This document shows, in pieces, positions 7,004 to 21,469 of a stretch of 21,469 nucleotides of DNA. Where the stretch lies: positions 1-21,469 of IMG/VR virus record IMGVR_UViG_3300027777_000178; one strand, given 5' to 3'. The stretch comes from a virus. The notes beneath the pieces are model-generated. The model was not told where the DNA came from, ran no database searches, and saw only the letters and a program-made list of their open reading frames with translations. Both the position numbers and the translations under genes were made by a program. Each line of letters starts with the position of its first letter. Position 1 is the stretch's first letter.

Positions 7004-8179
7004 ATGAGTTTCATCGCAGCCAGCAACTTCGTCAGCGTCTCGGTTTCTTCTCCGCCCACTGGTCTCCAGCAGTATGCGGTGAACAACCTCGCCATTTTCA
7101 CCAACGAAACGCCCACCAGCCTTACCCCGCCCACCTTCGCCGCTCCAGGCATCTACCTCAGTCCAGCCGACGTGCTCGCTGATTGGGGTAGCGGCTCCGA
7201 GGTCTACGCGATGGCAAATCTGGTCTTCGCTCAGTCGCCCAACATCCTCGATGGTGGCGGCTCGCTCATCATCGTCCCTCTTCCCGTCAGCGGAACCAAC
7301 TCGACGCTCGCTGAAGCTATCCCAAATGCCCTCTTGATTAACTTCTTTGGTGGGGCTCTCTGGGCTGGCATCACTCCTGACGACGCAGCCATTCTCGCAG
7401 CCGCCACGGCGTGCGAATCCATTCGCGTCAAGTTGTTCGCCAGCTCCTACCTTTACGCCTCGGTGGCGGGCTTCTTCACTACGATCAAGGCAGCGTCTGA
7501 AATCCACACCCGCTGCCTGCTGTGCATGACCGCACAAGGCGCAGAAGTCTCCGCCTCCGCCAAGTCGGCCCGCCTCATGGCTGCGGCTTACGCTGGGCGG
7601 GCGCTTTCGGTCAACTTCGATGGCGCGAACACGACCGCCACGATGCACTTGAAAGTCCTCACGGGCATCAACCCCGATGTAGGCATCACCCAGACGATCC
7701 TCAATGCCTGCAAAACCGCCGGCGTGGACGTGTATCCTTCGGTCGGTGGCGGGGCGCAGTACGTCGGCAAGGTCTACAGCACTGGCGGCAACGAGTATTT
7801 CGACAACGTCTACAACCTCGATTGGCTCGTGTTTGCGCTCCAAGTCGCCGGCTTCAATGCTCTGGCTACCACCAGCACCAAGCTGCCCCAGACCGAGCCG
7901 GGAATGGCTATCTTGAAGGGTGCCTACATCAACGTCCTCCAACAGGCTATTGGCAACGGGTTCGTCGCTCCCGGCACCTGGAACTCGCCCGAGCTGTTTG
8001 GTAACCCTGCCGACCTCCGACGCAACATCCTCAATCAGGGCTACTACATTTACAGCCAACCCGTGAACCAGCAGTCGCAAGCCACCCGCGAAGCTCGGGA
8101 AGCCCCTATCGTTCGTATCGCCATCAAATACGCCGGTGCGATCCAAAGCAGCGACGTGATCGTTTCGGTCAACAAGTAA
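7004..8179 (+). CDS. Contractile tail sheath protein (DUF3383 family)
   Basis: A 391-residue sheath subunit. The N-terminal segment runs FVSVSVSSPPTGLQQYAVNNLAIFTNE, followed by LSPADVLADWGSGSEVYAMANLVFAQSPN, which is the classic DUF3383 signature ('y.s...V..dfg..s.ey..A...F.Q.P.P'). Further along are GALWAGITPDDAAILAAAT, the domain where the protein packs around the tube, and a C-terminal block GYYIYSQPVNQQSQATREAREAPIVRIAIKYAGAIQSSDVIVSVNK. The Gln-rich 'QS.A.R..R..P.i.ia.k.aGAih.v.v.i.vn' ending is strongly conserved in the family. Subunits stack around the tube and contract to drive it through the cell envelope. The gene lies just before the tube gene as in other simple myophages. No Shine-Dalgarno motif precedes the ATG (context ACGCGCC). 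Confidence 0.92.
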   Translation: MSFIAASNFVSVSVSSPPTGLQQYAVNNLAIFTNETPTSLTPPTFAAPGIYLSPADVLADWGSGSEVYAMANLVFAQSPNILDGGGSLIIVPLPVSGTNSTLAEAIPNALLINFFGGALWAGITPDDAAILAAATACESIRVKLFASSYLYASVAGFFTTIKAASEIHTRCLLCMTAQGAEVSASAKSARLMAAAYAGRALSVNFDGANTTATMHLKVLTGINPDVGITQTILNACKTAGVDVYPSVGGGAQYVGKVYSTGGNEYFDNVYNLDWLVFALQVAGFNALATTSTKLPQTEPGMAILKGAYINVLQQAIGNGFVAPGTWNSPELFGNPADLRRNILNQGYYIYSQPVNQQSQATREAREAPIVRIAIKYAGAIQSSDVIVSVNK

Positions 8180-13376: not shown

Positions 13377-13745
13377 ATGCCACAACCATTTCGAGGAATC
13401 ACCGCTGTGAACGACTGGACTTTTGGCAAAGGTCGCAACTCCTACTTCACCAAGCAGCAAGCCATCTCGGCAGACATCAAGACGTCGCTCCTGTTTTTCT
13501 TGAATGACTGCTTTTTCGCCATGTCCACGGGCATCGACTGGTGGAACTTGCTCGCCTCCAAGGGTGAGTTAGCCAAGCAAAACATCTTGCTCCAAGCCCG
13601 CCAAACGATCATTCAGCGGGAAGGCGTGGTCCGTATCAATTCTGTCGATGCCTTGGTTGATTCGGCACAACGCCGACTCACGCTCAAGTTTAACATCGAC
13701 ACAATTTACAGCCGCAACGTCTCAGATTTTGTCCAACTCCCATGA
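13377..13745 (+). CDS. Baseplate wedge protein, gp25-like
   Basis: A 122-residue gp25-like protein. The N-terminal segment NDWTFGKGRNSYFTKQQAISADIKTSLLFFLNDCFFAMSTGIDWWNLL and the C-terminal VVRINSVDALVDSAQRRLTLKFNIDTIYSRNV follow the phage form of the family. The hallmark is 'DW.fGkG...y....AI...IkTrLl.flnDcFFa...GIDW.nll', followed by a 'v..v.sv......R.lt..f.i.tiys' strand pair. It forms the conserved inner wedge core that links sheath and hub. It lies directly before the J gene, the usual order, with an ATGA overlap. Confidence 0.88.
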   Translation: MPQPFRGITAVNDWTFGKGRNSYFTKQQAISADIKTSLLFFLNDCFFAMSTGIDWWNLLASKGELAKQNILLQARQTIIQREGVVRINSVDALVDSAQRRLTLKFNIDTIYSRNVSDFVQLP

Positions 13746-14977
13746 ACGCAATCGACCAGAACGGTATCCAAACCGATACTTCGGCGCAGACTCTGGCTAA
13801 ATTTCTCAATGGGTTCACCAGCAATGCGGGCGTAAGATACGCCGGGATGTTTGAGATCTATGGGGCGACCATCAACGTCAACCCCAACTCTCCTGACGGG
13901 CAGTTCGTTAATCTCGGAGTGCAGTTCACCCAGGATATGCTGGCTTTCATCCAGCAAGCCTACGCCAGCTTCGACCCCGATCAGGCAATCGGAGTTCAGC
14001 TCGACCAGCGCTGCGCGATCAACGGGGTAGTGCGTAACGCCGGCACCTACACCTACACGAACATCACCGTCACTGCGACCCAAGCCGTAACGATCAATGG
14101 GCTAGACACCGCGCCAAACGCCCCCTTCACGGTGTCGGATTCCTCGGGCAACCAGTTCGTGCTGGTATCCACTCACGTCTTTGGCGCAGCGGGCAACGCA
14201 TCCTTGGCTTTCCGTGCTCTCGTGCTTGGTTTGGTGGAGACCGTGCCAAACACGATCACCGTCATCACCACCGTCACGCTGGGCATCTCCACGGTCAACA
14301 ATCCGGCTGCGGCTACCTCTGTTGGCACCAACGAGGAGACAGATTACAACCTGCGTATCCGTCGTGCTCGGTCGGTTGCTTTGCCAAGCCGAGGCTATTT
14401 CGACGGGCTCTATGGTGCTCTGGTCGATATAACCGGGACGACCTCCGTCAAACTGCTGGAGAACACCACCAACACCACTGACGGCAATGGCATCCCTGGC
14501 CACTCCATCTGGGCAATAGTCCAGGGCGGATCCAACACCGACATCGCCAACGCAATCTACGTGAAGCGCAACGCGGGCTGCGGCATGAAGGGAAGCGTCT
14601 TAGAGTATATTACTCAGGTGGACGGATCTTTCTTCGCCATCTTCTTCGACCGCCCGACAACTCAAGACCTCTGGATCGAGTTGGATGTTCATGCGGTCAC
14701 TGGCACGGTGGATACTGCGTATCTGGAGAACCAGTTACTGGCCGCATTGACAACACCCACAATCAATTCTGCGGGCTTGCTGCCCTACGCCATTGGGCAA
14801 AGCGCCGTCGCCTCCACCATCGCGGCATTTATTCAATCGCTTGCGCCTAACGTAGCCATCTCTGGCGAAGGTGTGTCTACGGCAATCGGTGGTCCCTTCG
14901 TGTCGTTCGTCGCTCCGACAGCGGTCAACTACCAATTCGCAACCTCTCTGGCCCGCATCACGATTACCGAGATATGA
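13742..14977 (+). CDS. Baseplate J protein (gp47/gp6-like)
   Basis: A 411-residue baseplate J family protein. Features: an N-terminal segment with PDGQFVNLGVQFTQDMLAFIQQAYASFDPDQAIGVQLDQRCAINGVVRNAGTYT, which matches 'G.ll.l.a....d......ay..ldP..A.G..LD....inGi.R..at.t'. Then comes GTNEETDYNLRIRRARSVALPSRGYFDGLYGALVDITGTTSVKLLENTTN, the classic 'GteETD..lR.R...s...p..g....l..al..i.GV..v.v.eN.t' core. The C-terminal half holds the small alpha/beta domains (IWAIVQGG, IELDVHAV). It forms the wedge ring that transmits the contraction signal. Neighbours on both sides overlap by ATGA. Confidence 0.92.
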   Translation: MNAIDQNGIQTDTSAQTLAKFLNGFTSNAGVRYAGMFEIYGATINVNPNSPDGQFVNLGVQFTQDMLAFIQQAYASFDPDQAIGVQLDQRCAINGVVRNAGTYTYTNITVTATQAVTINGLDTAPNAPFTVSDSSGNQFVLVSTHVFGAAGNASLAFRALVLGLVETVPNTITVITTVTLGISTVNNPAAATSVGTNEETDYNLRIRRARSVALPSRGYFDGLYGALVDITGTTSVKLLENTTNTTDGNGIPGHSIWAIVQGGSNTDIANAIYVKRNAGCGMKGSVLEYITQVDGSFFAIFFDRPTTQDLWIELDVHAVTGTVDTAYLENQLLAALTTPTINSAGLLPYAIGQSAVASTIAAFIQSLAPNVAISGEGVSTAIGGPFVSFVAPTAVNYQFATSLARITITEI

Positions 14978-15861
14978 GTCTGACGACGCTCACCGATTAC
15001 TACAGCTCGCTTTTGGCCTACCAGTACCGGGGGCTGCCCAATGCTGATCGGCAAGTGAAGCTGTGGGCGAGCCAGATGATTGGAGAGAACCTCGCGGGGT
15101 CTTTTCTGACGTGCTTTGACCTCGATCAAGCTATCGGTCCTCAACTCGACATCTTGGGAAAGTATGTCGGAGTGGCTCGCAACATCGGGGCACCCGAGGC
15201 TCGACCTTACTTTGGGCTTTGGACTTACGCCGAGACGATTTTGCTCCAAGCCAGCTACCAAGGCACTTGGAATCCCACGACTAACGATCCTGCGCTGACT
15301 TCCAGCACATCAGGTAATTGGTGGGTGGCGAGCAGCGCCGGCACCTCGACCAGCCCAGTAGCCGCAACCTTTGCCTGCGGCGACGTGCTCTACTGTTCTG
15401 GGGGAACGGCTTTCAGCCATTACGTCACAGGCACTCCCAACGGCAACGGTTTGACCAGCTACGCTTCCCCAGGGGTCAACGCCAACGGCATCTTCTACCG
15501 CTACGATTTTGCGACGGGCCAGAATAGCAATCTCACCGACGAGCAATATCGCACGGTCATCAAGCTCAAGATCGTCCTCAACTCTAGCGACGGCACCTTG
15601 GCGAACATCATGGCGTATCTCCAAGAGTTCTTCGCGGGGCAGATTTTTTTAGTGGATACTCAGAACATGAATCTGGCCTACACCGTTCTTTCGACGGTAG
15701 CCCTGTCCCCAGAGCTGCTCTCAATCTACTTGCCTCGACCTATGGGGGTCGGTATCAGCGTGACCATTATCTCACCGATACCGGGAGGAGGCAGCACCCT
15801 TACGACCGAAAGTGGGGATACTCTGATTACTGAAGATGGTTTAACCCTGACTACCGAATAG
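14974..15861 (+). CDS. DUF2612 baseplate wedge protein with inserted domain and repeat tail
   Basis: A 295-residue protein of the DUF2612 family, which occupies the place of P2 gpI after the J gene. Residues 1-82 (YYSSLLAYQYRGLPNADRQVKLW, then CFDLDQAIGPQLDILGKYVGVARNIG) and 185-260 (NLTDEQYRTVIKLKIVLNSSDGTL, YLQEFF) are the family core, built on 'fdldtAvG.QLD.lG..vGv.R' and 'lsDeqYR..ikl.i..N'. Residues about 93-152 are extra: a YQGTWNP-TTNDP segment, SGNWWVASSAGTS and ACGDVLYCSGGTAF, a beta-type module known to me from fibre proteins. The C-terminus (275-295) is a period-8 repeat. It probably anchors fibres to the baseplate. ATGA overlap with the J gene. Confidence 0.83.
   Translation: MSLTTLTDYYSSLLAYQYRGLPNADRQVKLWASQMIGENLAGSFLTCFDLDQAIGPQLDILGKYVGVARNIGAPEARPYFGLWTYAETILLQASYQGTWNPTTNDPALTSSTSGNWWVASSAGTSTSPVAATFACGDVLYCSGGTAFSHYVTGTPNGNGLTSYASPGVNANGIFYRYDFATGQNSNLTDEQYRTVIKLKIVLNSSDGTLANIMAYLQEFFAGQIFLVDTQNMNLAYTVLSTVALSPELLSIYLPRPMGVGISVTIISPIPGGGSTLTTESGDTLITEDGLTLTTE
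15796..15858 (+). repeat. Period-8 peptide repeat at the end of the DUF2612 gene
   Basis: The codons specify TLTTESGD, TLITEDGL and TLTTE: 2.6 units of an octapeptide with consensus TLxTExGx, ending at the stop codon. The DNA of the units differs at synonymous sites, so the peptide pattern rather than the DNA repeat seems to be kept. Confidence 0.85.
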
Positions 15862-15863
15862 AC

Positions 15864-17519
15864 ATGAGCAACATCACTATCACTGGCTTATCAGCCATCG
15901 GCACGATCACGTCGGCTACGTTGCTCCCCGTGGTGGATGTATCCGGCACCCCGACTACCAAGAAAGCTACGGTCGCGCAGCTCATCAGCGGTCTGCCCGT
16001 TGCTACTTCATCCACGGTCGGCACAATGTCTGCCGCTGACAAAGCCAAGCTCGACGCCGCTACCGACGCCAACACCGCCAGCGCCATCGTGCGCCGAGAT
16101 GCGTCAGGGAACTTCACGGCAGGCACGGTCACGGCAGCAACAGTCACCGGACTCAGCACGCCGACCAACCCGACCGACGCTGCCAACAAGAGCTACGTCG
16201 ATGCCAGTGCCGCAGGACTTACCGTCAAGCAAGCTGCCCGCGTTGCTACCACAGCAAACGTCACTCTCAGTGGTGGAGCACCCAACGTGGTGGATGGCAT
16301 CACACTCCTCGCCAACGACCGCATCTGCGTCAAGAATCAGTCAACCCTGACTCAAAACGGTATCTACTATGTCGCTACGTTGGGCACGGGATCAAACGGA
16401 ACTTGGACGCGAACCACTGACGCCGACACCGGAGCCGAGCTTGCCACGGGAACTTACATCTTCGTAACCGCTGGAACCGTCAACGCCAACGCAGCCTTCA
16501 CGATGGTCACCCAGGGGACAATCGTGATTGGGACGTCAGACATCGTCTGGGCCTTGTTCTCGCAGGTAACCAGCATCGCAGCTTCCAGCATCACGGGGCA
16601 GTTAATTTCCAGTCAAATTCAAGACGCGGCAATCGGCACAGCTAAGTTCGCCGCAAGCTTAACCCCTGTGGAGATTCTGGGAACCCTTCCAAGCTCGGGC
16701 AACTTTGCGGGACGACAAGTCTTCCTGACCACCGACTCCAAGCTCTACCGCTACACCGGATCGGCCTTCACCGTAGCGGTGCCAACGGTGGATTTGACCG
16801 GCCAAATCACGACCACCCAGATCACCGACAACGCCATCACCTCGGCCAAAGTCCTCGCAGGAGCCATCGTGGCTGGCAAAATTAGCGCCAACGCCGTCAC
16901 TGCCGGGACAATCGACGCCAACGCCGTCACTGCCGGCACCATCTCAGCAGGAGCGGTCAACACGACGGAGCTTGCAGCCAATGCTGTCAACGCCAGCAAG
17001 ATCGCCGCAGGAGCAGTCACGGTGGGCAAAATTTCAGTCGCTCAGCTCGACGGAATCAGCGCCAACCTTGGCAACATCACAGCTGGAACCTTGACCAGTG
17101 TCGATCTGACGGCATCGAGCGGACTCAGCCAAGTCTCAATCACCTCGGCGGGGATGGTCGTGGGCGCTGGGCGCATCACGTTTGCCGCCTCTGGAAGCAA
17201 TCCGACTGTGCGCGTATACGCTATTGGAGGCACCGACCGCATCGAAATCAACGGCAACAGTACCTCGGGAATACCCGCAGCGATACAAGCCTTCGACGGG
17301 ACGGGCGTATCCGGCGTAACCATAAGCTCCGCCGGCGTGGTGATGACCAACGCAAAATCCGTCAATTTTGGGGCAGGTTCACGCCTGCAAAAATCTTCTA
17401 GCGATTCGTGGACCCCCAAGATGTTCGACGGGAGCCACGACATAGAGTTCCAGTGGGACGGAGCAGACCTCAAAGTCCGCATCGACGGCAGCACCGTCAA
17501 AACCATCCAGACCTTTTAA
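15864..17519 (+). CDS. Tail fibre protein
   Basis: A 551-residue fibre. Residues 1-45 (ITITGLSAIGTITSATLLPVVDVSGTPTTKKATVAQLI) form the attachment head found on many phage fibres. Then come SASAIVRRD-type and TNPTDAANKSYVDA segments and a module at about 122-235 (VTLSGGAPNVVDGITLLANDRICVKNQ, then NGIYYVATLG and GTWTRTTDADTGAEL), well known from phage fibres. Residues 240-400 are built from short repeats of the form I-x-x-x-A-I/V-x-x-x-K/T-I, including tandem ANAVTAGTI units, as in lambda gpJ-type stalks. The C-terminal 130 residues are beta-rich with a final strand block (DIEFQWDGADLKVRIDGSTV). No chaperone or autocleavage domain is visible. It starts 2 bases after the DUF2612 stop. Confidence 0.85.
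   Translation: MSNITITGLSAIGTITSATLLPVVDVSGTPTTKKATVAQLISGLPVATSSTVGTMSAADKAKLDAATDANTASAIVRRDASGNFTAGTVTAATVTGLSTPTNPTDAANKSYVDASAAGLTVKQAARVATTANVTLSGGAPNVVDGITLLANDRICVKNQSTLTQNGIYYVATLGTGSNGTWTRTTDADTGAELATGTYIFVTAGTVNANAAFTMVTQGTIVIGTSDIVWALFSQVTSIAASSITGQLISSQIQDAAIGTAKFAASLTPVEILGTLPSSGNFAGRQVFLTTDSKLYRYTGSAFTVAVPTVDLTGQITTTQITDNAITSAKVLAGAIVAGKISANAVTAGTIDANAVTAGTISAGAVNTTELAANAVNASKIAAGAVTVGKISVAQLDGISANLGNITAGTLTSVDLTASSGLSQVSITSAGMVVGAGRITFAASGSNPTVRVYAIGGTDRIEINGNSTSGIPAAIQAFDGTGVSGVTISSAGVVMTNAKSVNFGAGSRLQKSSSDSWTPKMFDGSHDIEFQWDGADLKVRIDGSTVKTIQTF
16887..16946 (+). repeat. Tandem 30-bp repeat in the fibre stalk
   Basis: Two adjacent 30-base units coding for ANAVTAGTID and ANAVTAGTIS (residues 342-361). 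The first 20 bases of each unit are identical (GCCAACGCCGTCACTGCCGG) and the rest differ at a few sites. Looser copies of the motif lie on both sides (AGAIVAGKIS, AGAVNTTELA, ANAVNASKIA, AGAVTVGKIS), so the stalk probably grew by duplication in 10-residue steps. Confidence 0.9.
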
Positions 17520-17521
17520 CC

Positions 17522-18361
17522 ATGCCTGCCATTCAACGCTACACGCAAAAAGTATTCGGTGGGTCGCTTACCCCGACCGGCAACGTCGCGGTCTACGGCA
17601 GCTTGGCCGCAGGTTCGCCAACATACCCCTCGATCACCTCGGACTTGGCGACCATCCAATCTTTGGCAGCTTGGACTACTGGGCTCAACAATGCCGTGAT
17701 CGGCAACCGCAGCCCCGCGTTGGAAGACCTCAACGGCTTGTTCGTGGTGTTGTCTCAGCAAATTGCCTACCTGCTCCAGAACGGCATCGCCGAATGGGAC
17801 TCGGGCACGGCCTACTACGTCGGCCAAGCCGTCCGCGTTCCAGGCACCGCTCTGGTCTGCTTCAGCCTCGTAAACAGCAATCTGGCGAACAACCCCGCCA
17901 CCGACTCGAACAACTGGTGCGCCAGCGGTTCGTCCTATCCGGCAATAGCGGTAACTGCTGTTTCTCAGATCGTCTCGGTAGACGGGGGAGGGCACACCAT
18001 CAATTTCGACTCTTCAGAGTATGACCCGCAAGGGCGCTACTCAGTTTCAACGTACCGTTACACCGCGCCAGTGCCTGGGGCTTACCGCATCTCGGCTAAC
18101 CTCCAAGTGGATAACAACACAGGCCAGACCAGCACGATGGAGTTAGCCTGCCGCGCCGTAAAAAACGGTTCCGTAGTCCTTCGCGCCGCTGGCACGTCCG
18201 TAGCAAATCCCCCCGGCAGTCGCTGGTATCCGCAACTCAACACCGTCGTAGTCCTTGCCGCCGGCGACACGGTGGAGATCCAGCTTGAGGCCAATGACAC
18301 GGTGAACTCTGGCACCGTCACCGTCTCCAACTCCGACTGGTCGATCAGCAAACTCCCATGA
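17522..18361 (+). CDS. Tail fibre/tip protein with carbohydrate-binding-like and C1q-like domains
   Basis: A 279-residue protein. Residues 1-90 (QRYTQKVFGGSLTPTGNVAVYGSLAAGSP, then PALEDLNGLFVVLSQQIAYLLQNGI) are a common phage fibre N-terminal module with a helical stretch. Residues 92-133 (WDSGTAYYVGQAVRVPGTAL, ending in SNNWC) resemble the W-x-Y-x-x-G-x-x-V-x-x-x-G ... W pattern of small CBM5/12-like sugar-binding modules. Residues about 148-279 look like a C1q/TNF-type jelly roll: INFDSSEYD, YRYTAPVPGAYRISANL, NTVVVLAAGDTVEIQLEAN, and a final strand. Such trimeric jelly rolls often form receptor-binding tips. I chose the ATG at 17522, two bases after the previous stop, over in-frame codons inside the fibre gene. 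Confidence 0.75.
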   Translation: MPAIQRYTQKVFGGSLTPTGNVAVYGSLAAGSPTYPSITSDLATIQSLAAWTTGLNNAVIGNRSPALEDLNGLFVVLSQQIAYLLQNGIAEWDSGTAYYVGQAVRVPGTALVCFSLVNSNLANNPATDSNNWCASGSSYPAIAVTAVSQIVSVDGGGHTINFDSSEYDPQGRYSVSTYRYTAPVPGAYRISANLQVDNNTGQTSTMELACRAVKNGSVVLRAAGTSVANPPGSRWYPQLNTVVVLAAGDTVEIQLEANDTVNSGTVTVSNSDWSISKLP

Positions 18362-19185
18362 GCACTGTCCTTGAACAGATCCCCATCCGGCTATCCTTCA
18401 GTCCGGTCTCTAATCCGCCCAACGCCCCCATCGACTCCAACACGGGGTTAGCGGCTGCGTGGTGGCGCGGGAATACGGTAGCCTTGCAATGTGGTATCTT
18501 TGACTCGCTGGGCGTCAGTGTGAACCTCACGAATGCCACGGCAGTCCAGCTCCTCATCCAAGACACCCCGACGAGCGCCAACGTGCTGCTGAACAAGTCG
18601 CTCGTATCCGCCGACATCATTCCGACCATCTCTTCGGCGGGCTGGGCCTCGGGACAACAGCAGCAGTTCACTTTCAACCTGCTCAATGGTGACACCGACT
18701 TTGACCTTGGCGGAGCCGAGTCCGCAACCTTCTGGTTGTCGCTGCGGGTCTTCACGGGTGTATCCACGTTCTTGATCTACGGTGCAGGCTACATCACCGT
18801 GTTCAATGCGGGAGTCCTGATTCCCGTCCCCAACCCCGAGTTCGTGTCCCTGCATACCCAGACCAACAGCACCGGCAACAGCACGGTGTCCCCGACGGCG
18901 GTGGTGCATACCGAGAAGATTACCCTCACGGGTGGAGCCACAGTGCGCAACGTCCTCGTCAGCACGGTGGGCTTGCCAGTAGGGGCTCGCATCGACTTAG
19001 CCTTGGTCTTCAGTTGCGCCAACGGGACCACGGTCAACATCTACAACACCTCGACCAGTGGTGCCCTCCTCTTCTCCTTCATCCGCGCCGGCGATGAGCC
19101 CAATGCTCTTTTCCGCCTTGTCGCCAATGGCGTAGGCGGCTTCCTCAATGTCGAGCAAGTTATCCCGGCTTTCCCCGCCCTCTGA
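18358..19185 (+). CDS. Structural protein of unknown family, two-domain (possible fibre connector)
   Basis: A 275-residue protein that I cannot place firmly. Residues 1-155 are beta-rich: [14 protein letters not shown], an [21 protein letters not shown] segment, then [17 protein letters not shown] and [13 protein letters not shown]. This outline (a charged 'wwRG..v.l.v.lf' strand, 'n.t...v.l.d', then a 'fwl.l.v.t' strand) recalls BppU-type N-terminal baseplate domains that carry fibres, but the match is loose. Residues 180-275 form a second beta domain with [22 protein letters not shown] and [24 protein letters not shown], a shape often seen in fibre C-termini. The ATG overlaps the previous stop (ATGA), so it is coupled to the C1q-like gene. 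Confidence 0.65.
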
Positions 19186-19189
19186 TCCC

Positions 19190-20446
19190 ATGAAACGACT
19201 ACCTGTTTTCCTCCTCTTGGCATCCACTGCGCTTGGACAGGTCAATGTCCAGAAAGCGTCAGGCACAAACGAGATCAGCGGCTCGTTGGTAGTCGGTAGC
19301 GGCAAGACCCTCACTGCCACGGGCAGCGGCATCATTGCGGCTACGTCTGCGCCCGCCTCTGGCATTACTGGTGTTGTCGGGGTTGCCAATGGGGGCACAG
19401 GCATCTCCACAACTCCCACAAACGGGCAGTTGCTCATTGGCAACGGCACAGGGTTTACGGCCAGTACGCTGACCGCTGGTTCGGGAATTTCGATTTCTAA
19501 CAGCGCAGGCGCAGTTACCATCACGGCAACTGACGGCAACATTGCGCTCGACGACGGCACGGCGGCGGCTCCCTCGCTCAACTTTATCAACGACGCCAAC
19601 ACCGGACTTTATCGGCCAACGGCAGACACGGTCGGCATTGTCGGCGGAGGCCACGACATCCTGCGGCTGACTGACGTGGCAAGCGCGACCGACTATCTTG
19701 AAATTAAAAATGGCATCGGCGTCGGAAACCCGCTCCACGTTCTTGCCGAGGGTCCGAGCGCGAACATCGGGATGCACTTGCAGCCAAAAGGCAGTGGGCT
19801 TCTGACGATTTCGGACGGCACGGATTTCAACAAAGGTATCCGGTTTCGCTCCTCGTCAAGTGCCGCCAGCGCAATCACGCTGCTCGATGCCGTCTCGACT
19901 GCGGGGCGCGTCGTGACCCTGCCGGATGCAACAGACACCCTCGTCGGACGCTCAACCACAGACACGTTGACGAATAAAACGCTCGTCGCTCCCGCGCTTG
20001 GCACCCCTGCCAGTGGAGTTGCAACCAATCTGACCGGCTTGCCCCTCACGACGGGAGTCACTGGCGTATTGCCAGGGGCAAACGGTGGCACCGGCGTGGC
20101 CAACACCGGGAAAACGCTCACCTTGCAAAACTCAGTGGTCTTTGCGGGGGTGAACGGATCGACTTTGAACATCTCCACTGGGGGCACTTTGGGGAGCGCG
20201 GCCTTCACCGATGCGAGCGCTTACCAAGCAAACGGAGCGGGCATTACCTCCTTGGCGACCCTTTCAGCCATATCCACCACAGCATTGACAGTTCCAGTGA
20301 TTCGGTTGTGGATACAAACGTCGGATGGAACCTCGCAGATGTGGGTGCTCAAGACGGGCACCGACGCCACTGATACGGGGAGCGTCCAACGACCCGACGA
20401 CTACAACGCTTCCACCAATGCTAAAGTCTGGTATCGCGCAGGATAA
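19190..20446 (+). CDS. Fibre-like protein with N-terminal Sec signal peptide
   Basis: A 418-residue protein. The first 16 residues ([16 protein letters not shown], then Q) form a Sec signal peptide: two basic residues, a Leu-rich core and an A-L-G cleavage site. The rest is phage-fibre-like: [76 protein letters not shown] and a second GANGGTG at about 296-302. The last 60 residues are shared with the protein at 20774. I chose the ATG at 19190, 5 bases after the previous stop, because it gives a clean leader; the upstream in-frame ATG at 19148 would put the signal sequence inside the chain. The name fibre is by sequence; the leader is unusual for a cytoplasmically assembled virion part. Confidence 0.75.
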
Positions 20447-20455
20447 TTTTTACTT

Positions 20456-20764
20456 ATGAGCACCTTCCGACATTCCTCCAGCGGCGCAGCAAAAACGCTC
20501 GTTGTCGCCGCTTCGCCCGTCAACTTCGTCGTTGGCGACTTCTCCACCCCCACCGAGCCCTACCTACGGCTCCAAGTGCAGGACAACTCGATCTACGTCA
20601 CCTATGACGGCACCACCCCGTCTGCTTCCAATGGGGAGATCCTGACTCCAGGTCTGGGGGGCTACTTCCTCAAAAGTGACGTGCTGAATTGGAAGTTCCT
20701 GCAAGTGTCTCTCGCGGCTCGGGTCTTTGCCCAGCCTTGCGACAGCATCAGTCCAACCAACTGA
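20456..20764 (+). CDS. Small virion-associated protein
   Basis: A 102-residue protein without signal peptide or membrane segment. Features: a Ser/Ala-rich N-terminus (FRHSSSGAAKTLVVAASPVNFVVGDF), then LRLQVQDNSIYVTYDGTTPSASNGEIL, LKSDVLNWKFLQVSLAARVFAQPCDS. The pattern 'Lr....d..iyvT.DGt.PsasnG..l..g....l.....l..wkf....s..a.vf.q..' recurs in short phage structural proteins placed among fibre genes. It probably decorates a fibre or baseplate; I cannot name a family. It begins 9 bases after the previous stop. Confidence 0.65.
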   Translation: MSTFRHSSSGAAKTLVVAASPVNFVVGDFSTPTEPYLRLQVQDNSIYVTYDGTTPSASNGEILTPGLGGYFLKSDVLNWKFLQVSLAARVFAQPCDSISPTN

Positions 20765-20773
20765 TAAAACATC

Positions 20774-21085
20774 ATGCTCACCGCAACCGCAGTTGCCTCG
20801 CGGGGTTGGCTATTGGACACAGCCTCCTCGGCAAGTCCTTCTCCCTACCCTGTCGTAGTCAATACTGGCATTACCTCGTGGGCACAGCTTGCAGCAGTAA
20901 CTACGACCACTCTGCCTCTCGCCAGCGTCATTGCCTGGGTCGAAGCATCCACCCTGATCCTGATTGTCACCCAACTCCTTGCAGGGACTGACGCCACAGA
21001 TACCGCCAACGGAGTTCAGAGACCCAATGATTTCAACTCCTCCACCAATGCCAAGGTGTGGTTCCAAGTTGGCTACGTCCCCTAA
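20774..21085 (+). CDS. Small protein sharing a domain with the C-terminus of the upstream signal-peptide fibre
   Basis: A 103-residue protein. Residues about 35-100 align with residues 354-418 of the signal-peptide fibre at 19190. Both have the order W/L-A-x-L-x-A-V/I-x-T-T-x-L, then V-I-x-x-W, then TGTDATD/AGTDATD, a V-Q-R-P-N/D-D segment and STNAKVW. The N-terminal 30 residues (ATAVASRGWLLDTASSASPS) are not shared. The domain therefore exists both as a fused tip and as a free-standing protein, which suggests a module that can be swapped or that associates with the fibre. The start is 9 bases after the previous stop, with no Shine-Dalgarno motif. Confidence 0.68.
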   Translation: MLTATAVASRGWLLDTASSASPSPYPVVVNTGITSWAQLAAVTTTTLPLASVIAWVEASTLILIVTQLLAGTDATDTANGVQRPNDFNSSTNAKVWFQVGYVP

Positions 21086-21092
21086 TTTACCG

Positions 21093-21469
21093 ATGAAAAA
21101 AGTCACCCAGTCTCTTCTTGCCCTGATCCTCGCGGTCTTGCCGGTTACCGGCTTCTCCGCTGCGTCCGACGTGCTGTTCTCACAAAAGAACGCATCCAAC
21201 ACCGCTTGGTCGAATGTGGTCGTATCTCCGGTAGCCAACGGGGTAATGAGTTATTCCTCGACCAAGGTGCCGATCAGTTCGTCGCTGTTCACCTTCAACG
21301 CAACCACTGGGTTGCTGTATGCGCCTACGGTGAGTGACGCAGGCGGCACCCTCGCCGCGCAGCGCAACGCCCTCGCGCCCGCGCAGGGGTTGTCGTTTGT
21401 TGGGGTGAACCCCGCAAACATTTCAATTGCAGCGTTCAGCACGGGAGCGTTTACCGTCGCCGCAACGGT
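21093..21469 (+). CDS. Secreted fibre-like protein, N-terminal part (runs off the window)
   Basis: An open reading frame from the ATG at 21093 to the window edge, 125 complete codons with no stop. Residues 1-23 (MKKVTQSLLALILAVLPVTG then FSA) are a clear Sec signal peptide: KK, a long Leu/Ala/Val core and an A-x-A-like cleavage site at F-S-A or S-A-A. The mature part, ASDVLFSQKNASNTAWSNVVVSP then VMSYSSTKVPISSSLFTFNATTGLLYAPT, is Ser/Thr-rich and beta-type like fibre proteins. It starts 7 bases after the previous stop, in line with the operon. It is the second leader-bearing gene in this cassette. The remainder and any C-terminal domain cannot be judged here. Confidence 0.72.
   Translation, partial: MKKVTQSLLALILAVLPVTGFSAASDVLFSQKNASNTAWSNVVVSPVANGVMSYSSTKVPISSSLFTFNATTGLLYAPTVSDAGGTLAAQRNALAPAQGLSFVGVNPANISIAAFSTGAFTVAAT

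Follow-up and report, generated by a model that had tools for sequence, protein, structure and literature searches.

Predicted Sec leaders on fibre-like proteins in the tail-fibre cassettes of a phage group linked in part to Verrucomicrobiota

Two fibre-like proteins encoded in the tail-fibre cassette of the virus contig IMGVR_UViG_3300027777_000178, referred to here as fibre B (P0001) and fibre C (P0002), begin with predicted leaders for Sec export and signal peptidase I cleavage. The observation is wider than first reported, as predicted leaders were detected in the fibre cassettes of related metagenomic contigs and in integrated prophages of Verrucomicrobiota. What can be read from the sequences are the predicted leaders and their starts, the fact that they are confined to the fibre cassette, and the exact boundary at which a leader is added. 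Standard knowledge of the Sec pathway and signal peptidase I makes it very probable that the leadered proteins are exported and cleaved; that the mature proteins end up on the virion is a weaker inference, which we consider slightly favoured. For the reading as a whole, in which real tail fibres are made as Sec precursors, exported, cleaved and docked on virions at lysis, we see about an even chance.

The late operon and its fibre cassette

The window analysed (21,469 nt) is the complete linear IMG/VR contig and is the late operon of a myovirus (contractile tail), in which a DUF3383-type contractile sheath, baseplate J and DUF2612 genes are followed by a fibre cassette that is truncated at the contig end (Table 1). 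The nearest isolate according to the gp25-like baseplate protein is Bdellovibrio phage phi1422, which also has the most similar sheath segment and is described as a phiPLPE-like dwarf myovirus (PMC3391216). The window has the features of this group: the DUF3383-type sheath, a short baseplate gene set and a conserved order of gp25-like gene, baseplate J, DUF2612-like structural protein and fibres. The baseplate proteins are homologous, and the N-terminal domain of fibre A, the first fibre gene, is shared with phi1422 gp67. Genomes of this type are about 45 kb, whereas the window is a 21.5-kb fragment.

Table 1. Features of the late operon and fibre cassette in the window.
Feature	Position	Strand	Remarks
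DUF3383-type contractile sheath gene	7004-8179		
gp25-like baseplate wedge protein	13377-13745	+	Anchor for relatives
Baseplate J-like protein	13742-14977	+	
DUF2612 baseplate-associated protein	14974-15861	+	E 1.7e-26
Fibre A, first fibre gene	15864-17519	+	Leaderless in the window (MSNITITGLSAIG...)
C1q/BclA-like tail-fibre protein	17522-18361	+	No leader (MPAIQRYTQKVFGG...)
Conserved leaderless protein	18358-19185	+	Immediately upstream of fibre B
Fibre B (P0001), leadered fibre-like protein	19190-20446	+	418 aa; starts at ATG 19190
Predicted Sec leader of fibre B	19190-19237	+	Cut before Q17; rule-based test and homology to leaderless L102
N-terminal domain of mature fibre B (QVNVQK...)	19238-19420	+	Conserved; alignment A9
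Central fibre module with NTGLYRP	19397-20101	+	About aa 70-304
C-terminal module of fibre B	20171-20446	+	Repeated in the 20774 ORF (44% identity, E 2.6e-15)
102-aa ORF	20456-20764	+	Kept in syntenic relative; no convincing leader
103-aa leaderless ORF	20774-21085	+	Resembles the fibre B C-terminal module
Fibre C (P0002), leadered fibre-like protein	21093-21469	+	Truncated by contig end
Predicted Sec leader of fibre C	21093-21161	+	Protein begins MKKVTQSLLALILAVLPVTGFSA, then ASD

The initial annotation had described fibres B and C as fibre-like members of a tail-fibre cassette, and this was borne out both by their location downstream of the sheath, baseplate J and DUF2612 genes and by similarity to known structural families. 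P0001 matches PHROG tail-fibre and virion-structural families, as do several other leadered proteins, and P0002 has a weak match only. A full-length syntenic homologue of fibre B (87% identical) is present in L003/L095, and the complete fibre C homologue in L095 is 447 aa long. No match to P0001 or to the fibre A N-terminal domain was found in the isolate phage collection, and comparison of alignments A8 and A9 with solved structures yielded nothing credible. The AlphaFold2 model of P0001, made with 33 sequences, had a pLDDT of 50 and was uninformative.

The modules of these genes are also found in other contexts. The NTGLYRP module of fibre B has 117 matching stretches in viral contigs, and the 80 that were kept lie mostly within long leaderless proteins that have an unrelated cytoplasmic-type start (MIHTQTEIDNLVELAIIQRAELK...). 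The final 91 residues of fibre B reappear in the separate 103-aa ORF, and similar endings (HPNDYDPTTNPRVWKQIL and RPNDYNATTNARVWKQIL) occur on tail proteins of prophages in the Verrucomicrobiota genomes G217 and G329. The C-terminal half of the C1q/BclA-like protein is C1q-like (PF00386, E 2.8e-5).

Distribution and boundary of the predicted leaders

All leader calls were made on simple gene calls with a single rule-based test, which looks for a charged n-region, an uncharged hydrophobic core (h-region) and small residues at -1 and -3, and which accepted seven of eight textbook E. coli leaders compared to 7 of 4480 random internal 45-mers. Fibres B and C both passed, as the initial annotation had proposed from their leaders, and their starts are supported by the spacing from the upstream stop codon. 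Fibre B starts 4 nt after this stop, with a 4-nt ATGA overlap instead in the syntenic L095, and fibre C starts 7 nt after it, with an identical gap in L095. The test places the fibre C cut after TG in the window and after FAAA in L095, the exact site being our own reading. Lack of an export signal is usual for fibres, if not strictly defining, and by sequence fibres B and C and their relatives depart from it.

The gp25-like gene served as the anchor for relatives (alignments A3 and A4), and 85 loci were scanned. For proteins of at least 100 aa, leaders were called on 61 of 441 genes downstream of the anchor, but on only 2 of 714 upstream, and a stricter score with flexible starts gave 63 and 3 leadered genes respectively; many of these contigs nearly duplicate one another and come from related samples, and the numbers should not be read as independent events. 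For most leadered genes, the start codon either shares a 4-nt overlap with the preceding stop or is found at a distance of 1-13 nt. The downstream hits in L091, L108, L122 and L152 probably represent spanins, lipoproteins or membrane proteins, and the tree does not treat them as fibres.

In the anchor tree, which is based on 121 columns and has weak deep forks, the window falls in a clade of 43 contigs (SH-aLRT 99), 26 of which have leadered cassettes and 2 do not, the remaining 15 being too short. The next wider set (50 contigs, support 93) includes 30 leadered cassettes and again 2 without. The sequences of the window clade derive from metagenomes. One fibre cassette, at L101 7226-14088, carries four leadered genes, and a fifth gene there (13696) has a leader-like start but no charged n-region. 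Cysteine content was considered as a sign of oxidative folding and gives no support, at 0.40% in leadered proteins vs 0.72% in their neighbours.

The leaders themselves diverge in sequence. Between the window and L095, the fibre B leader codons have a pN of 0.52 and a pS of 0.72, and mature residues 1-60 have a pN of 0.054. The L095 leader, MKKLLLALLAVANLHA followed by Q, differs in its letters and keeps the leader pattern; judged from these alignments, the letters of the predicted leader are nearly free to change while its character is conserved. Orthologues of fibre A in the closest relatives are leadered, and leadered fibre A is found in L092-L098 and L103. In L095, where this is added to the leaders of the other two, all three fibre-like genes are leadered. 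The leadered forms in L095, L096, L097, L098, L103, L126 and L158 have the same N-terminal domain as the leaderless ones.

The leaderless forms also locate the putative cut. Leaderless fibre A of the window (MSNITITGLSAIG), of L102 (MSDVKITALPTAS) and of phi1422 (gp67, MGIKISQM) begins at the predicted cleavage site of the leadered forms, and leaderless fibre B of L102 starts MSLKINVQK where the leadered rows read QVNVQK directly after the cut. As these homologues start at the predicted cut position, the leader is a precise add-on. The fibre B boundary is defined by homology, independently of the scoring rule. Of the 12 leadered rows, 10 have A or G immediately before it, and in the other two (L098, L099) the small residue is found one position further upstream. 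This homology-defined boundary is the best evidence for the predicted cleavage. The commonest predicted +1 residue is glutamine (22 of 63 leadered genes). Substrates of Bacteroidetes signal peptidase have a strong preference for glutamine at this position (PMC5837995), and the +1 glutamine was therefore not used for host assignment.

Cultured relatives, hosts and prophages

In phi1422, two late genes are leadered, gp68 (MKFMIAFIIALFSVTMATA followed by Q20) and gp75 (MKSFAFLFILLFGFLAQA followed by S19). Neither has a PHROG match, and the fibre A orthologue gp67 is leaderless, which argues against the fibre-export reading. In the cultured relatives from Gammaproteobacteria, Elizabethkingia and Agathobaculum, seven in all, no fibre gene has a leader, and leadered fibre genes were absent from the Bacteroidota phages L236 (hankyphage-like) and L237 (Riemerella) and from Elizabethkingia phage EKP1.

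The sole match to the anchor in the genome collection was a MAG contig labelled as an uncultured Opitutae bacterium (Verrucomicrobiota), which is moderate host evidence since it is a binned phage contig. A search of 388 Verrucomicrobiota genomes with the baseplate anchor gave nothing beyond this MAG. Stronger host evidence comes from integrated Verrucomicrobiota prophages, in which leadered genes with PHROG tail-fibre matches sit at the end of the tail region. On a 201-kb contig of G217, a prophage includes genes for terminase, portal, head protease, tape measure and integrase and encodes a leadered fibre (MKPILAILLFLSGSAFA followed by QNAAVTKNPSNNFLTGDLVMPGGRTL), which matches a PHROG tail-fibre family as well as the N-terminal profile of fibre B (E 1.7e-6). 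G329 is arranged in the same way, and in G211 and G241 leadered fibre-like genes follow the tape measure. At most other tape-measure loci inspected in Verrucomicrobiota there was no leadered fibre, so leadered fibres are not universal in this phylum. These prophages and the window are of different phage lineages, and the trait may therefore be linked not only to phage lineage but also to the host. The large group of contractile-tailed phages with leadered fibre genes is linked in part to Verrucomicrobiota. The G217 prophage may be interrupted: its head and tail genes are separated by a transposase-like gene and two leadered host-like genes (L214; G217 C48, about 109.9-112.5 kb).

Destination of the leadered proteins

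If the fibres are exported, the Sec leader would take the chain across the inner membrane and signal peptidase I would cut it off, so that the fibre would mature outside the cytoplasm. Virions assembled in the cytoplasm would then meet the mature fibres at cell lysis, and docking would occur via the conserved N-terminal domain, as it is found in the leaderless homologues. Fibres usually attach through an N-terminal domain. The virion is favoured as the destination for three reasons: homologues with and without a leader are found at one and the same place in the operon, leadered fibre A has no second copy on the contigs tested, and the mature N-terminal domain is common to the leaderless forms. 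In textbook extract experiments, tail fibres or tailspikes are added to particles that are already complete in other respects, which makes attachment after lysis plausible. A point against docking is that exported fibres would have to reach the baseplate before they diffuse away. Of the three readings given in the initial annotation, the addition of fibres to the virion outside the cytoplasm appears to fit the sequences best.

The main rival is that the leadered proteins are exported to work on the infected cell or in its vicinity, by receptor masking, superinfection exclusion or degradation of surface polymers, and are fibre-like because they bind the same surface. It holds this place because some leadered genes are not simple fibres and look like enzymes or membrane proteins. 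A late-cassette protein of L164 (16155-17348) has a C-terminal membrane segment in addition to papain-family protease and thrombospondin type 1 (TSP1) domains, fibre B of L098 (16033-18147) has a GDSL hydrolase domain close to the end of the available sequence, and beta-helix and EPS-depolymerase matches also occur within the leadered set. Two leadered proteins have an S74 fibre-chaperone domain, a point for the virion reading. In L106 (14870-16513) the leader and S74 domain are accompanied by a C-terminal hydrophobic stretch with a basic tail that could serve as an anchor. A leadered S74 protein in a Verrucomicrobiota genome (L181) has a similar hydrophobic stretch and basic tail. Export is the predicted fate of these proteins, and signal-peptide genes of Porphyromonas phages have been proposed to modify the outer membrane (PMC10367356). 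The shared operon position and N-terminal domain of leadered and leaderless forms count against action at the cell surface, as does the finding that contigs with a profile match, the 47.8-kb L096 contig among them, carry no copy of the fibre A domain besides the leadered one, so that the virion would lack this fibre. For the same reason an exported decoy, as raised in the initial annotation, is unlikely to exist alongside a separate virion copy kept in the cytoplasm. Display on the infected cell may still occur, although overall we judge action there to be rather unlikely.

The hydrophobic N-terminus could also stay uncut, as an inner-membrane anchor for tail or fibre assembly at the membrane or as a hydrophobic plug in the virion. 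The case for cleavage is made from sequence rules and homology, and AXA-like sites can stay uncut, but the leaderless starts fall at the boundary, a small residue precedes it, and the frequent +1 glutamine would have no obvious reason in an uncut anchor; we find this reading improbable. Leaders could also have been captured by recombination with host genes, as the initial annotation suggested, here those for secreted proteins, and have no role. Donors exist, as leadered S74 proteins are encoded by Verrucomicrobiota genomes, and the leaderless fibre A of the window indicates that leaders can be gained or lost. Chance capture is nevertheless very improbable: leaders recur in dozens of divergent contigs of one supported clade and persist at anchor identities down to about 40%, several non-homologous genes are leadered per phage, and the hydrophobic pattern is kept while the letters change.

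Extending the export and docking of fibres to phages of Verrucomicrobiota and of some other diderm bacteria, we tentatively propose a two-compartment assembly, for which the chances are somewhat below even: heads and tails would form in the cytoplasm, the fibres would be exported through Sec and then be processed and mature outside the cytoplasm, and the virion would gain them only when the cell opens. Tailed phages are taught to assemble wholly in the cytoplasm. Filamentous phage coat proteins are virion proteins made with Sec leaders, and filamentous virions are assembled at the membrane and extruded, whereas the phages here are tailed.

The initial annotation knew of no described system, and full-text literature searches likewise gave no account of tailed phages whose tail fibres carry Sec leaders; subscription papers, in which prior art is possible, fell mostly outside their scope. 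The main text of the report on phiPLPE-like phages does not mention signal peptides (PMC3391216), and phi1422 differs from the window in having leaders on gp68 and gp75 only. The nearest report concerns the Nixviridae phages of Porphyromonas gingivalis, with signal-peptide proteins of which five expose a glutamine after the predicted cleavage, but there the genes are of unknown function and the term 'tail fiber' is absent from the text (PMC10367356). Host-encoded secreted proteins of Verrucomicrobiota resemble the phage proteins in combining a leader with an S74 fibre-chaperone domain; they differ in being known as genes of bacterial genomes and not of phage tail operons.

Fibres determine which cells a phage infects. 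If fibres are indeed exported, virion assembly would involve one more compartment and one more step in time; such fibres could encounter periplasmic folding or modification, and might cover the infected cell ahead of its lysis. The isolate phi1422 makes the question of fibre export testable now.
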